A stretch of 64,000 nucleotides of DNA from contig CALXMP010000001.1 of assembly GCA_944389505.1 (NCBI GenBank), positions 62,001-126,000 on the forward strand, given 5' to 3'. Below the pieces are notes generated by a model. That model ran no database searches. It had not been told where the DNA came from and saw only the letters and a list, made by a program, of their open reading frames with translations. The stretch is from an uncultured Spirochaetaceae bacterium (GTDB lineage: Bacteria > Spirochaetota > Spirochaetia > Sphaerochaetales > Sphaerochaetaceae). This document shows, piece by piece, positions 26,202 to 31,099 of the stretch (position 1 is its first letter; each line of letters starts with the position of its first letter). Position numbers and translations under genes: made by a program.

Positions 26202-26228
26202 AAAAAGGACTGCCATTCCGACAGTCCC
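26202..26228 (-). terminator. Rho-independent terminator of the rplM-rpsI operon
   Basis: On the minus strand GGACTG pairs with CAGTCC across a 9-nt loop (26207-26227) and is followed by TTTTT (26202-26206). Confidence 0.85.
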
Positions 26229-26248: not shown

Positions 26249-26665
26249 TTATCTCTTGGAGAACTGGAAGCGCCTTCTTGCGCCCTTCTGGCCATACTTC
26301 TTTCTCTCGACCATTCTTGGGTCTCTTGTCATGAAGCCAGCCTCATGAAGAGCATGGCGATAGTTCTCATCATAGTTGACGAGAGCTCTTGCAAGACCAT
26401 GTCTGCATGCCTCTGCCTGTGAGCAGATTCCACCGCCAGCGACTGTGATGACAAGATCGTACTTGCCCTGAGTCTCTGTGACTTCAAATGGCTGTACAAC
26501 CTTTGCTGCATTGATAGCATCGACGAAATAGACTGCGATGTCCTTTCCGTTGATTGTCACCTTGCCGTTTCCATCGCGGAGATAGACTCTTGCGACGGAA
26601 GTCTTACGGCGACCTACGCCGTGGCCAAGATTGATATTCTTATTTCCTTCATTCTTCGTAGCCAT
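26249..26665 (-). CDS. rpsI: 30S ribosomal protein S9
   Basis: The 138-residue protein has GRRKTSVARVYLRDGNG near the N-terminus and the classic basic C-terminus ending in FSKR, whose tail reaches the ribosomal P site. The start follows GGAGAGG. It lies 11 nt after rplM, the usual L13-S9 pair, and is followed by a strong terminator. Confidence 0.97.
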   Translation of the reverse strand: MATKNEGNKNINLGHGVGRRKTSVARVYLRDGNGKVTINGKDIAVYFVDAINAAKVVQPFEVTETQGKYDLVITVAGGGICSQAEACRHGLARALVNYDENYRHALHEAGFMTRDPRMVERKKYGQKGARRRFQFSKR

Positions 26666-26676
26666 ATCGCCTCTCC

Positions 26677-27105
26677 TTAAATCTCAACAGCTATCGGCTT
26701 CTGTGCCATGTGCGGGTGCTCTGCTCCAGCATAGATCTTCACGTTTGTGAAGAGCTTTCTGCCAAGCCTTCCATGAGGAAGCATTCCCTTGATAGCATGC
26801 TCCATCGGATAAGTAGGCTTTCTCTGGAGCATCTTCTCAAGAGATTCAGCCTTGAGTCCGCCTGGATACATTGAGTGGCGATAATAAATCTTATCTTCCA
26901 TCTTATTACCGGTGACGCTAGCCTTGGCTGCATTGATGATGATCACGTAGTCGCCCATATCCTGGTGCGGTACATACTCAACCTTATTCTTGCCTCTGAG
27001 GATCCTTGCTGCAGCAACAGCTACACGGCCAAGGTTCTTGCCCTCTGCATCGATCAGATACCACTTCTTCTCGATGGACTGAGGTTTAACGAAAATAGTC
27101 TTCAT
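26677..27105 (-). CDS. rplM: 50S ribosomal protein L13
   Basis: The 142-residue protein matches L13: LGRVAVAAARILRGKNK, then DYVIIINAAK and the C-terminal HGRLGRKLF and AGAEHPHMAQKP. The start follows AGGAAGG. It is first in the rplM-rpsI operon and has a structured leader of about 240 nt, which suggests control at the RNA level. Confidence 0.97.
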   Translation of the reverse strand: MKTIFVKPQSIEKKWYLIDAEGKNLGRVAVAAARILRGKNKVEYVPHQDMGDYVIIINAAKASVTGNKMEDKIYYRHSMYPGGLKAESLEKMLQRKPTYPMEHAIKGMLPHGRLGRKLFTNVKIYAGAEHPHMAQKPIAVEI

Positions 27106-27346
27106 AAATCAACCTTCCTGTTTATTCTCCAAGGAATGAATCCTTCCTGCTTACGCAGGCACGCCGGTCCAGCCAGGAGGACCACAGAACAGGGTTCACC
27201 GAATCCATAAGGCTCCAGGAAGGAACAGACTCTCCGGGGAAAGGAAGTATTCTGAAGATTTCTCTTCGGTATCTGTACCAGCCAGGATCAATCCCGATGG
27301 ATATCCCTGCTCTGCTTTACGCGAGAGCATGCAGAAAACTGCACGA
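27106..27346 (-). promoter_or_regulatory. Structured 5' leader of rplM-rpsI
   Basis: Non-coding stretch of about 240 nt between the predicted transcription start and the rplM ATG. On the minus strand it holds several hairpins: GGTCC/GGACC, then CCTGC-GTAA-GCAGG (27146-27159) with a GNRA tetraloop, then AAGGA/TCCTT just before the Shine-Dalgarno. Leaders of this kind in other bacteria bind an r-protein to control their own operon. No match to a specific known L13 leader can be claimed. Confidence 0.5.
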
Positions 27347-27352
27347 TTTGGC

Positions 27353-27382
27353 ATTATATAGAATTAGGGGCAGGAATGTAAA
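27353..27382 (-). promoter_or_regulatory. Promoter of the rplM-rpsI operon
   Basis: -35 TTTACA (27377-27382, 5/6), 18-bp spacer, consensus -10 TATAAT (27353-27358). Expected start is near 27346. Confidence 0.65.
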
Positions 27383-27396
27383 GAGTATACTCCACC

Positions 27397-28848
27397 TTAC
27401 AGCGATTCTGCGATTGCCCGTCTTATTCCCTTCCTGTCTATTGCAGATAGGCATGCCTTCACCTTGCAGATGAATACGCCATCCGTCAGCATATTCTCAG
27501 ATAGTCCTGCAATGCGGAAAAATGCTACAGGATCTGAAGCCGCTGCAAGGAGCTCGTTGCATTTCGGATCATCGATCGGCATATGGTTCCCTTTCTCATC
27601 CAGATGGATGTAAAAATGGTTCCATAGCGCAAGCGCCATAATCACATGATCCATCGTCAGTCCGCTTGCCATCCCCTCCTCCAGAGGCCGGAGTATCGCA
27701 TTCGATATCTTCTTGGATCCATCCGAAGCCAGACGCAGCAATGTATCGGCAATATATTGGTTGGAGAATCTGGAGATAAGATCATCTTCATATGCCGGTA
27801 TATCAACACCGGGGACCTCAGGGAGAGTCGCTGCAATCTCCGGCATGTAGTAATCGCGGATGAACTCTCTGACAACAGGATCCATGGCCGCCTCATGAAC
27901 CATCCTGTGGCCCATCATATATGACGGATATGAAAGAGCGGAATGAGATCCATTCAGCAGTCTGATCTTCATAAGCTCATATGGTCTCACATCCTTAACG
28001 ACCAGAGCTCCCGCCTTGGAGAAATCAGGGATGGCAGTGCATGCAGAATCCTCTATCACCCACTGCATGAAGCTCTCGCAGTGCACAGAACAGCTATCCT
28101 CCAGATCATATTCAGCTTTCAGCCTGCTGATGTCATCAGGACCTGTTCCTGGAGTGATTCTGTCGACCATCGTGCAGGGGAAAGCAATACATTCCTCAAT
28201 CCAGCTTGCAATGTCTGGATACTTTCTCCTGCAGAACTGAAGTATGCAAGCCCTGAGCATCTTCCCATTCTCCGGGACATTGTCACAGCTCATTATAGTG
28301 ACTGGACACTTTTCCTTATATCTTTCTGAAAGTGCTTTGGAGAGGCATCCTATCGCTGTCTCCGGAGGATCAGAGGATTCCAGATTGTGGATTATCCGGG
28401 GATTATCCCAGTCTATGCTGCCGACATCATCACGATAGCAGTATCCCTTTTCTGTGATTGTCAGCGTGATAAGCTTTGTATCAGGAGATGACAATACTCT
28501 GGAAACTGTACCCGGATCATCCGAAAGGTTCGCATAGCCGATTACAGGCCCATTGATACGCAGTTCTTCTGTCCCGTCAGGTGAGATTGACAGCACGCTG
28601 TACAGGTAATCCTGCTCCCTGAAATCATCGATGAAGGCCCTATCCGACGGGATTATATCAACCTCGAAGACACCTCCATCATATGCTCCGCTCCTTAGGA
28701 GCATGTCCAGGTATGTCAGGAAATGAGAGCGATGGAAATGGCCCATCCCGATATGGACTATCGATGGTTTGAGCGCTCCTCTGTCATAGGAGGGAACGCT
28801 TATCCCCTTCTTCTTCAATGAATCTAGCGATCTATCCGAGATAATCAT
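27397..28848 (-). CDS. Mannitol/fructuronate dehydrogenase-family oxidoreductase
   Basis: The 483-residue protein belongs to the long-chain polyol dehydrogenases. It has IVHIGMGHFHRSH near residue 30, FPCTMVDRITP in the middle and KIRLLNGSHSAL, the KxxxxNxxH catalytic motif. Candidates are fructuronate reductase (UxaB/UxuB), mannonate or mannitol 5-dehydrogenase, all NAD(P)H-linked. The length favours a fructuronate reductase-type enzyme, but no hexuronate genes are adjacent. The start at 28848 fits the family; an ATG at 28872 is also possible. It follows the UvrD/PcrA helicase gene by 49 nt. Confidence 0.85.
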   Translation of the reverse strand: MIISDRSLDSLKKKGISVPSYDRGALKPSIVHIGMGHFHRSHFLTYLDMLLRSGAYDGGVFEVDIIPSDRAFIDDFREQDYLYSVLSISPDGTEELRINGPVIGYANLSDDPGTVSRVLSSPDTKLITLTITEKGYCYRDDVGSIDWDNPRIIHNLESSDPPETAIGCLSKALSERYKEKCPVTIMSCDNVPENGKMLRACILQFCRRKYPDIASWIEECIAFPCTMVDRITPGTGPDDISRLKAEYDLEDSCSVHCESFMQWVIEDSACTAIPDFSKAGALVVKDVRPYELMKIRLLNGSHSALSYPSYMMGHRMVHEAAMDPVVREFIRDYYMPEIAATLPEVPGVDIPAYEDDLISRFSNQYIADTLLRLASDGSKKISNAILRPLEEGMASGLTMDHVIMALALWNHFYIHLDEKGNHMPIDDPKCNELLAAASDPVAFFRIAGLSENMLTDGVFICKVKACLSAIDRKGIRRAIAESL

Positions 28849-28897
28849 TTCCTGCTTATCATACAGCAGCATTGCCAGAATCTGTGAAATTTCTTCC

Positions 28898-31099
28898 TCA
28901 GATCTTCTCCAGCGCAGCGAATGCTTCAATGAATTTTGCAGTCCTGCCCTTGAATGCAACTGTCAGGACACGCCTGTCCTTTGCCAGTTCGGTTATCTCG
29001 GTTATCTGCCCTTCCCCATATTCCTTGCTGCGGACTCTGTCTCCCGCCTTAAATGATCCATGGGCGTTCTTTGCCTCAGGCTTCTTCTTGATGACCTTAA
29101 CGCCAATCCCTTTCGCCCATGCTGGCTGAGATGAGACATATGTCCTGGGTTTATAGGAGAAACTCCTTCCGAAATAATCCTCGGGCTCTTCATTCCTGTT
29201 TCTGCCCTTTATCGCATCGACCTCACCTGCAAGGAGATTCTCCGGTATCTCTGCAAGGAACCGGGATGGCGTCTGGTATTCCGTACGCCCCCACATCGAG
29301 CGGCGGGATGCAAATGAAAGATAGAGAGAACGTCTTGCACGGGTCATTGCAACATACAGGATTCTTCTCTCCTCTTCCTCTGCTTTGGATATCTCGCTGT
29401 TCCGCCCTGGGATGATATCATCCTCGAGCCCGACAGCGAATACACGGCTGAACTCCAGTCCCTTCGTATTATGCATTGTCATCAGCGTAACACCGGGCTG
29501 ATCACGGGGATCTTTGTCGCCGAGCGTTGTAGTATCCAGGGTAAGTTTCTCAAGGAATTCAATGAGATCCTCACGCCCGGATCCAGCTTCCGACAAAGCA
29601 GATACAAGCGCACCGAGGTTTCCGATCTTCGCCTCGCGGATGGTCCTGTCCGGCTCGCTGTTATAAAGATCATACAGCCCTGCGTTCTCAAGACCTTTCT
29701 TCAGTATGTCTCCCAGGTTCTCATCATCATCCAGTGAAGCCGAAGCCGTATCCCAGGCAGAGAGAAATAGCCTGGCACCCTCCCCTGCTGCTCCTCCTGT
29801 TGATGCGGCAAATGCACGAAGGCCCTCCATGAGGTCATCTCCATATGAGAGTATCTTCGCTATCTTAGCCTCTCCAAGTCCTCTGGAAGGCTTGTTTATG
29901 ATCCTCCTGAATGAGACGGTATCATGGTGATTCATAAGCAGGTAAAGGAACGCAAGGGCATCCTTAACCTCCTCCCTGTCATAGAATCTCAGGGCACCGA
30001 TTACCTTATAAGGAATCTTCCTGTCGGTGAAAATCTGCTCAAAAATCTGTGACTGGGCATTTGTCCTGTACAATACCGCGGTATTGTCATAATCACCGAA
30101 GCCTTTAATAAGATCAGCAATACGCTCACCCTCCTCCCTTCCATCTGAGGAAGCGAGAACGGACGGCTTGGGTCCTCTGAGTCCTTCAGCACTTATGAGC
30201 TCTTTCTTATGCCTCTGCTTGTTGTGTGCTATGAGAGCTGCTGCAGGAGCAAGAATCTCAGATGTCGATCTGTAGTTCTTCTCAAGCCTTATCGCACGGA
30301 CATTATCAAATGATCCTGCGAATGTAAGGATATTGTCGATATCAGCACCTCTGAAGGAATATATCGACTGATCATCATCGCCAACGACTGTGAGCCTGGT
30401 CTCCGGGGTTATGAGCGCACGCAGCATCCTGAACTGTATCCTGTTCGAATCCTGATACTCATCGACAAGAACCATCCTGAAACGCCTCTGCATCTCAGTC
30501 CTTGTCTCCTCGTCATTCTCAAGAAGCCATGTGCTTTTGAGTATGAGATCAGCGAAATCAGCATTGCCGGATGCAGCAAGCGCTTCCTCATATCTCTGGA
30601 AAATCGATGGAAGATCGAAATCGGGCAAGAGCTCTGTCAATCCCGGCGAATCGGGAGTCATCCCCCTATCCTTAGCCTTCGATATGGCCTTCTGCACCTG
30701 CCTGAGATCCTTCTTCTCAAGCTTCACGCATGATGATAGCAGCTGGAGCGAATCGTCATCGTCATATATGCAGAAGGACGGAGAAAGCCCTGCCTTCATC
30801 CCGAAGCGCCTAAGGATATATGCCCCGAAAGAATGGAATGTCCTCATCTCCATTCCCGAAAGATCTGTGTCAGGAAGGGTATCGGCAATACGCGACCTCA
30901 TCTCCTCGGCAGCTCTATTCGTGAATGTAACAGCAAGGATCTGATACGGCCTGTATATGCCTTCCGAAACGGCATAAGCGATCTTCTGGGTTATCGTTCT
31001 TGTCTTGCCAGAGCCTGCACATGCAAGGATTAGAAGATTATGGTTGAAATCGCGGACAGCCTCACGCTGTTCATCGTTGAGCATGGAGAAATCAAACAA
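28898..31099 (-). CDS. UvrD/PcrA-type superfamily 1 DNA helicase
   Basis: The 733-residue protein has all SF1A motifs: CAGSGKTRTI (Walker A), TFTNRAAEEM, VDEYQDSNRIQF (motif II), GDDDQSIYSFRGAD, NYRST, TMHNTKGLEF and VAMTRAR, and ends with a PcrA-like C-terminal domain. It unwinds DNA 3'-5' in repair and replication restart. TTG at 31099 is the likely start: GAGGGG lies upstream and the frame overlaps the rimO stop by 8 bp. Whether it is UvrD, PcrA or Rep by function cannot be decided here. Confidence 0.93.
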   Translation of the reverse strand: MFDFSMLNDEQREAVRDFNHNLLILACAGSGKTRTITQKIAYAVSEGIYRPYQILAVTFTNRAAEEMRSRIADTLPDTDLSGMEMRTFHSFGAYILRRFGMKAGLSPSFCIYDDDDSLQLLSSCVKLEKKDLRQVQKAISKAKDRGMTPDSPGLTELLPDFDLPSIFQRYEEALAASGNADFADLILKSTWLLENDEETRTEMQRRFRMVLVDEYQDSNRIQFRMLRALITPETRLTVVGDDDQSIYSFRGADIDNILTFAGSFDNVRAIRLEKNYRSTSEILAPAAALIAHNKQRHKKELISAEGLRGPKPSVLASSDGREEGERIADLIKGFGDYDNTAVLYRTNAQSQIFEQIFTDRKIPYKVIGALRFYDREEVKDALAFLYLLMNHHDTVSFRRIINKPSRGLGEAKIAKILSYGDDLMEGLRAFAASTGGAAGEGARLFLSAWDTASASLDDDENLGDILKKGLENAGLYDLYNSEPDRTIREAKIGNLGALVSALSEAGSGREDLIEFLEKLTLDTTTLGDKDPRDQPGVTLMTMHNTKGLEFSRVFAVGLEDDIIPGRNSEISKAEEEERRILYVAMTRARRSLYLSFASRRSMWGRTEYQTPSRFLAEIPENLLAGEVDAIKGRNRNEEPEDYFGRSFSYKPRTYVSSQPAWAKGIGVKVIKKKPEAKNAHGSFKAGDRVRSKEYGEGQITEITELAKDRRVLTVAFKGRTAKFIEAFAALEKI

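Follow-up and report, generated by a model that had tools for sequence, protein, structure and literature searches.

A structured leader of the rplM-rpsI operon in a family of spirochaetes, with L13 as its proposed ligand

The rplM-rpsI mRNA of an uncultured Spirochaetaceae bacterium begins with a long structured leader that is probably a ribosomal-protein leader, with L13 as the proposed ligand and control apparently exerted on translation. The regulatory function ascribed to this leader in the original prediction is supported by covariation among the leaders of related genomes, by the conserved position of the promoter and by a covariance model of the leader, whose 7 matches in the class all lie before rplM. 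Of its elements, a hairpin whose (C)CUUUCCC loop sits on a stem of free sequence is the most conserved and reaches furthest. Positions are those of the window, by which we mean the whole 64,000-nt stretch of DNA analysed, and the features are collected in Table 1.

The rplM-rpsI locus and the extent of the leader

The names rplM and rpsI follow from the gene families to which we take the two genes to belong. The gene upstream of the leader ends at 27397 and is presumably a dehydrogenase of the mannitol/fructuronate type. A stretch 74% identical to this dehydrogenase region was seen at G000:C5:42317-42568, and in relatives such as L012, L013 and L033 the end of the helicase gene seems, by eye, to abut the leader.

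Between 26100 and 28100 there is a single promoter-like site, TTTACA-18-TATAAT, where chance expectation is 2.1. Its position implies a leader of about 241 nt with a start at 27346, in keeping with the TATAAT promoter and the leader of about 240 nt that had been proposed. Among 46 leaders of the same genus, the promoter box recurs between -229 and -312 from the ATG in 41 (200 shuffles: mean 0.085, maximum 2), implying leader lengths of 193-276 nt, and was not met in the other 5 at the stringency used. A box kept at a similar distance argues for a transcription start far from the ATG, with the start itself placed from the box, and so speaks against the objection that transcription might begin close to the gene. 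Among 27 close leaders, mean pairwise identity is 0.83 within the leader, compared with 0.72 for the 90 nt that precede the promoter. In five leaders from other genera (L302, L310, L330, L333, L348), inspection by eye suggests a TAGACA -35 and a TATATT-like -10 in place of TTTACA/TATAAT.

Table 1. Features of the rplM-rpsI locus and of its leader, in window coordinates
Feature	Coordinates	Strand	Remarks
Terminator-like hairpin with U-rich tail	26206-26228	-	After rpsI; 2 such sites found vs 1.3 expected
rpsI (S9)	26249-26665	-	11 nt after rplM
rplM (L13)	26677-27105	-	Directly downstream of leader
5' leader of rplM-rpsI mRNA	27106-27346	-	241 nt for a start placed 6-7 nt past the -10 box; start inferred
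Shine-Dalgarno AGGAAGG	27113-27119	-	Read from the sequence
PL outer 3' strand (GGAG)	27127-27130	-	7 nt before Shine-Dalgarno; 19-leader alignment
CCUGC-GUAA-GCAGG hairpin (GNRA stem of the original prediction)	27146-27159	-	Not conserved
PL inner 3' strand (GCGUG)	27160-27164	-	RNAalifold and 19-leader alignment
P5 hairpin (GGUCC/GGACC in window)	27166-27183	-	Deleted or nearly so in L030, L031
P1 3' strand (CCCUGUUC)	27187-27194	-	Permutation tests, 22 non-redundant leaders
GGUGA, conserved, before P1 3' strand	27196-27200	-	Alignment of leaders
P2 3' strand (UCUGU)	27225-27229	-	Permutation test, 26 close leaders
P4 hairpin UUCC-UUUCCCC-GGAG	27232-27246	-	Loop 27242-27236 in most conserved element; proposed L13 contact
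P3 hairpin GAAGA-GAAA-UCUUC, GNRA loop	27254-27267	-	Stem invariant in 19 leaders
P2 5' strand (ACAGA)	27272-27276	-	Permutation test, 26 close leaders
Junction AUAUCC, conserved, after P1 5' strand	27299-27304	-	GUCU or UUCC variants in divergent leaders
P1 5' strand (GAGCAGGG)	27305-27312	-	Permutation tests, 22 non-redundant leaders
PL 5' strand of long-range helix (CUCU + CGCGU)	27319-27327	-	5/9 pairs change on both sides
H1, 5' hairpin	27328-27345	-	6 pairs, 4 with both sides changed; pairing in 100% of cells (19 leaders)
Promoter TTTACA-18-TATAAT	27353-27382	-	11/12 consensus bases
Dehydrogenase-like gene	27397-28959	-	Between uvrD-like helicase and rplM leader

rplM could be located in 58 of the 60 relatives and in 130 of the 139 genomes of the family. 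Leaders were taken from 34 genomes of the window's genus (its own included) and from 54 more of the family, 88 altogether; L340, with a single upstream base, was dropped, leaving 87 leaders and 53 representatives below ~78% identity. The other families of the class contributed leaders from 16 of the 23 genomes having rplM.

Fold of the leader

Folded alone, the leader has a minimum free energy of -86 kcal/mol (z -1.90, with 7/200 shuffles equally stable); z is -2.34 when 60 coding bases are included. Several stable hairpins had been predicted, and hairpins are present, but stability by itself is weak evidence for structure, modestly better than chance. It is the comparison of leaders that settles the matter.

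RNAalifold applied to a MAFFT alignment of 19 close leaders gave 36 pairs, 14 of them changed on both sides. The named structure that was tested consists of H1, PL, P1, P2, P3 and P4, with 32 pairs. In the same 19 leaders, which are sequences from which the structure was suggested, 94.1% of 608 cells are paired, compared with 86.9% for shuffles. Both partners have changed in 15 of the pairs, and pairing falls to 22-54% when the partner is slid by 1-3 columns. Four of five measures lie above all 500 shuffles, and the fifth (further pair types) does not.

The strongest structural test is that of P1 across divergent leaders. Forty-six leaders have all three anchors, with anchor-less representatives left out, and reduce to 22 that are non-redundant (14 from the window's genus and 8 from a second genus) and that carry 19 different 5' arms. 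A 5' arm pairs better with the 3' arm of its own leader than with the 3' arms of other leaders (mean rank 0.038 against an expected 0.5). With equal offset freedom, 120 of 132 cells are paired against 98.1 in permuted sets (sd 3.2, maximum 109, 2000 permutations).

The mean rank for P2 is 0.145 in 26 of the 27 close leaders (the near-identical L004 was omitted), a generous figure because these leaders are related and are also sequences from which the structure was suggested. Permutation tests of PL are flat (mean rank 0.44 and 0.53), whereas the same helix is good in the 19-leader alignment. A tree-aware all-pairs covariation test of the 27 close leaders, made with our own script and not with R-scape, gave no pair at E <= 0.1. 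The covariation across relatives that had been named as a check is thus found in P1, in P2 and in the 19-leader structure, with no significant pair in the stricter all-pairs test. Helices H1, P1 and P2 covary, and the long-range PL does so less surely.

The loop of P3 is GNRA in 26 of the 27 close leaders (GAAA 9, GCAA 10, GCGA 7). A different GNRA stem, said to lie next to the Shine-Dalgarno, fared less well: CCUGC-GUAA-GCAGG is present in the window, but it ends 26 nt before AGGAAGG and is not conserved. Its loop is AUAA in L004, which is near-identical to the window leader, and a larger hairpin occupies its position in 14 of the 19 close leaders. A pseudoknot between CCGAA (27269-27265) and UUCGG (27203-27199), strands that are invariant in close leaders and overlap P3, gained no support (mean rank 0.46 across 22 leaders). 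Between the 5' hairpin and P1, four divergent leaders of the same genus (L012, L017, L023, L034) have the motif CCUCCACAA(C/U)C, which is absent from the window's group.

The CUUUCCC loop

The loop sequence CCUUUCCC occurs within the last 240 nt of 31/53 family representatives (100 shuffles: mean 0.41, maximum 2), and with its variants in 36/53 (shuffle mean 0.98, maximum 3). The pattern is missing within 240 nt of rplM in 17 representatives. Five of these have near variants of the loop (L021, L319, L320, L342, L351), and among the remaining 12 are the representatives of g26, g31 and g33, all four in the case of g33. In rplM leaders of other Spirochaetia families, CCUUUCCC was found in 0/16. 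The stem that carries the loop varies, examples being GUUCCUUCAUCC/GGAGAUAGGAAC in L035 and CUCAGGA/UCCUGAG in L346. Over 36 representatives, one of which (L014) was cut at the wrong copy, the two native flanks pair better with each other than with flanks exchanged between leaders (mean rank 0.24). The sequence CCTTTCCCCG is not enriched in the window's own genome (4 places vs 5 for the reversed control). In L325 (g30), a CCUUUCCCCGG hairpin about -290 from rplM has a second TTGACA-like box downstream of it, giving the impression that the leader has been bypassed.

Two candidates for mimicry of rRNA were set aside. The window leader contains TTGATCCTGGCT, presumably as in the 5' end of 16S rRNA, in a variable stretch that is not kept even in L004. 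The word GAGTCCGAAGAG of L008 is present in the 23S rRNA of G179, but it is the best of 16 words and most leaders lack it in full. CCUUUCCC itself does not lie inside the 16S or 23S rRNA of G179, its complement GGGAAAGG is present there, and no rRNA match was found in the window's own genome or in two others.

A similar loop is encoded in E. coli, where folding of the rplM leader gives hairpin hp1 a UUUCCC loop. UUCCC or UCCCC stands at a hairpin tip in 12/12 of the closest leaders, those of E. coli and Rahnella and ten others (500 shuffles: mean 2.0, maximum 6), with hp1 assigned by position only in 5 of the 12, where the CCCACGUUAC anchor was not found. The stems beneath these tips vary, with AAAGUUUU, GCACGA and GCAAUGUU as examples. 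The loop does not extend to 20 more distant gammaproteobacteria, 6 of which show UUCCC or UCCCC vs 3.9 expected, the division into 12 and 20 having been made after looking at the leaders. Across all 32 leaders, UUCCC or UCCCC is present in 18 vs ~5.9 expected, with some of these in the promoter and not in hp1. The L13 proteins of L396-L398, ranked just below the 12, are also at 80% identity to that of E. coli; a long loop of L397 contains UCCCC, and L396 and L398 are without the word.

Occurrence of the leader

R1, a covariance model built from the core of the close leaders, has a single match in the genome of the window at E <= 1. Its 7 matches in 297 genomes of the class are all in the same genus and, by coordinates, all just upstream of rplM; 9 other same-genus genomes in that sample, with leaders of divergent groups, have no match. 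Searched against 51 sources at E <= 5, the model had 33 matches. Of these, 20 were to close leaders and the window, and 8 were weak matches to other rplM leaders (E 2.6e-5 to 4.8). The remaining 5, at other places, are at chance level (E 0.08 to 4.9).

Ribosomal-protein leaders are recognised as structured 5' UTR elements consistently located at a ribosomal-protein operon and as structures backed by covariation, and they are bound by an encoded ribosomal protein that lowers expression, the role proposed here for L13. Here, each of the 7 matches precedes rplM, and the structure is backed by the covariation described above, with no single pair significant in the all-pairs test.

The leader corresponds to no family in Rfam 15, which had no match to the window at the gathering score. 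At E <= 10 only one human family matched the leader, on the other strand (E 0.16), and the loci of 23 relatives had only sub-threshold matches, outside the leader. Sub-threshold matches to n00280, a C. difficile sRNA located inside a helicase gene, occur at L021 2750-2849 and also in L011, L015, L022, L033, L301 and L306. These lie outside the leaders, presumably in the coding sequence of the upstream helicase, and so probably reflect protein-coding conservation and not RNA. Scans of genomes and viruses with the pattern CTTTCCCCGG-gap-CGGTGA were too loose to use: the matches listed were of mixed and mostly unrelated taxa, and the one inspected, L115 of a spirochaete, reads as coding.

Ligand and mode of control

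We infer both the identity of the ligand (L13 rather than S9 or some other molecule) and the mode of control. L13 in excess over free 23S rRNA would bind P4. Binding may then steady the P1/PL fold, closed immediately ahead of the Shine-Dalgarno, and reduce the translation of L13 together with that of the coupled S9. No terminator-like site with a U tail was found inside the leader, which makes translation control seem more likely than attenuation. Attenuation retains some probability, because the terminator in the E. coli leader works without a U run according to Iost & Jain (2019; PMC6736130).

The case for L13 as ligand draws on the loop. The occurrence of one loop on free stems in two unrelated leaders of the same operon is the best evidence here for L13, and it takes the form of a correlation. 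The UU(U)CCC loop may be a portable L13-recognition element common to the unrelated leaders of the spirochaete family and of enterobacteria with their close relatives, a suggestion that we make tentatively. If it is true, L13 leaders that have been called structurally unrelated share a binding code. The common loop also offers a direct and inexpensive way of testing which feature of its mRNA is recognised by L13, a feature not stated in those portions of the E. coli-leader literature that were examined.

A ribosomal-protein leader might instead respond to S9, or to L13 and S9 as a pair. rpsI is the second gene, after rplM, and the ligand is often not encoded by the first gene of an operon (Eckert & Weinberg, 2020, section 7; PMC7247131). 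Set against this, L13 has been verified as the ligand in E. coli and is assumed to be so in Firmicutes and Bacteroidia (PMC7247131, PMC10931766), and the loop common to our leader and E. coli hp1 points to L13. We consider S9, alone or paired with L13, unlikely.

The fold is riboswitch-like in being large and in having conserved motifs (AUAUCC, GGUGA, CUUUCCC) that do not belong to the proposed helices. These features would suit a cis element that senses a signal other than a ribosomal protein, such as a small molecule, growth rate or temperature, or one whose main effect is on mRNA stability. Sensors of metabolites are usually found before other genes as well, whereas R1 stands before rplM at all 7 places in the 297 class genomes, and we give this reading little credence.

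That the CUUUCCC loop is an internal anti-Shine-Dalgarno, pairing with the rplM ribosome-binding site, is improbable. The loop is pyrimidine and the Shine-Dalgarno purine, and complementary segments can be picked out (CUUCC/GGAAG in the window, CCCUUU/AAAGGG in L012), but across 35 leaders the loop shows no preference for the Shine-Dalgarno of its own leader over foreign ones (mean rank 0.53) and the mean z against shuffles is -0.75. Even less probable is a separate small RNA gene that happens to precede rplM: the element has its own promoter and a compact fold, yet neither a terminator-like site before rplM nor a second promoter-like site was found, and conservation extends into the Shine-Dalgarno. 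Conservation through recent descent only, with no function, would fit the weak single-sequence fold (z -1.9) and the lack of a significant pair in the all-pairs test, but is scarcely credible given that compensatory changes preserve P1 and P4 in leaders less than ~78% identical to one another.

Comparison with known L13 leaders

Eckert & Weinberg (2020; PMC7247131) list three structurally distinct L13 leaders, that of E. coli, which is verified, and those of Firmicutes and Bacteroidia, for which L13 is assumed to be the ligand. No word beginning with "spiroch" occurs in its main text. The E. coli rplM leader is described in PMC10931766 as 157 nt long with three hairpins and as repressed by L13. 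Iost & Jain (2019; PMC6736130) add a long-distance stem and cite another paper for the loss of L13 binding when hp1 is deleted.

The spirochaete leader resembles the E. coli and gammaproteobacterial type in being a long structured leader of the same operon with hairpins and a long-distance stem that joins both ends, in our leader the less certain PL. With the leaders of E. coli and its closest relatives it shares, in addition, a hairpin loop of the UU(U)CCC kind (CUUUCCC in P4) above a stem of free sequence. The arrangement of helices differs: hp1 is the first hairpin in E. coli, whereas the loop lies inside P1 and P2 here. Also absent from the window leader are the CCCACGUUAC start and the UCGAAGGG segment found in many gammaproteobacterial leaders.

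Like our leader, L13_leader (RF00555, which matches B. subtilis and L. lactis) and L13-Bacteroidia (RF03127) are cis elements before rplM. Unlike it, RF00555 is a model of 60 positions; it matched 0/10 genomes of the family vs 2/14 control genomes, and in the Firmicutes comparison, under strict filters, it was not found in 56 genomes of the order of G404. RF03127 is a two-hairpin model of 73 positions that scores 74.9 bits in the Prevotella leader and is absent from the window and from the 23 relatives' loci scanned.

The clostridial regions upstream of rplM in L366, L368 and L370 all contain AGCCCCG, apparently as part of a hairpin loop, at 76-100 nt from the aligned start of the gene. No Rfam family was found in these three loci, which may possibly contain an undescribed clostridial L13 leader.

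Among the literature matches listed, there was no L13 leader in spirochaetes and no UUCCC loop code for L13. Within the literature searched, the rplM leader described here would be a fourth leader of the L13 operon, structurally distinct from the three known, and the first described for spirochaetes.
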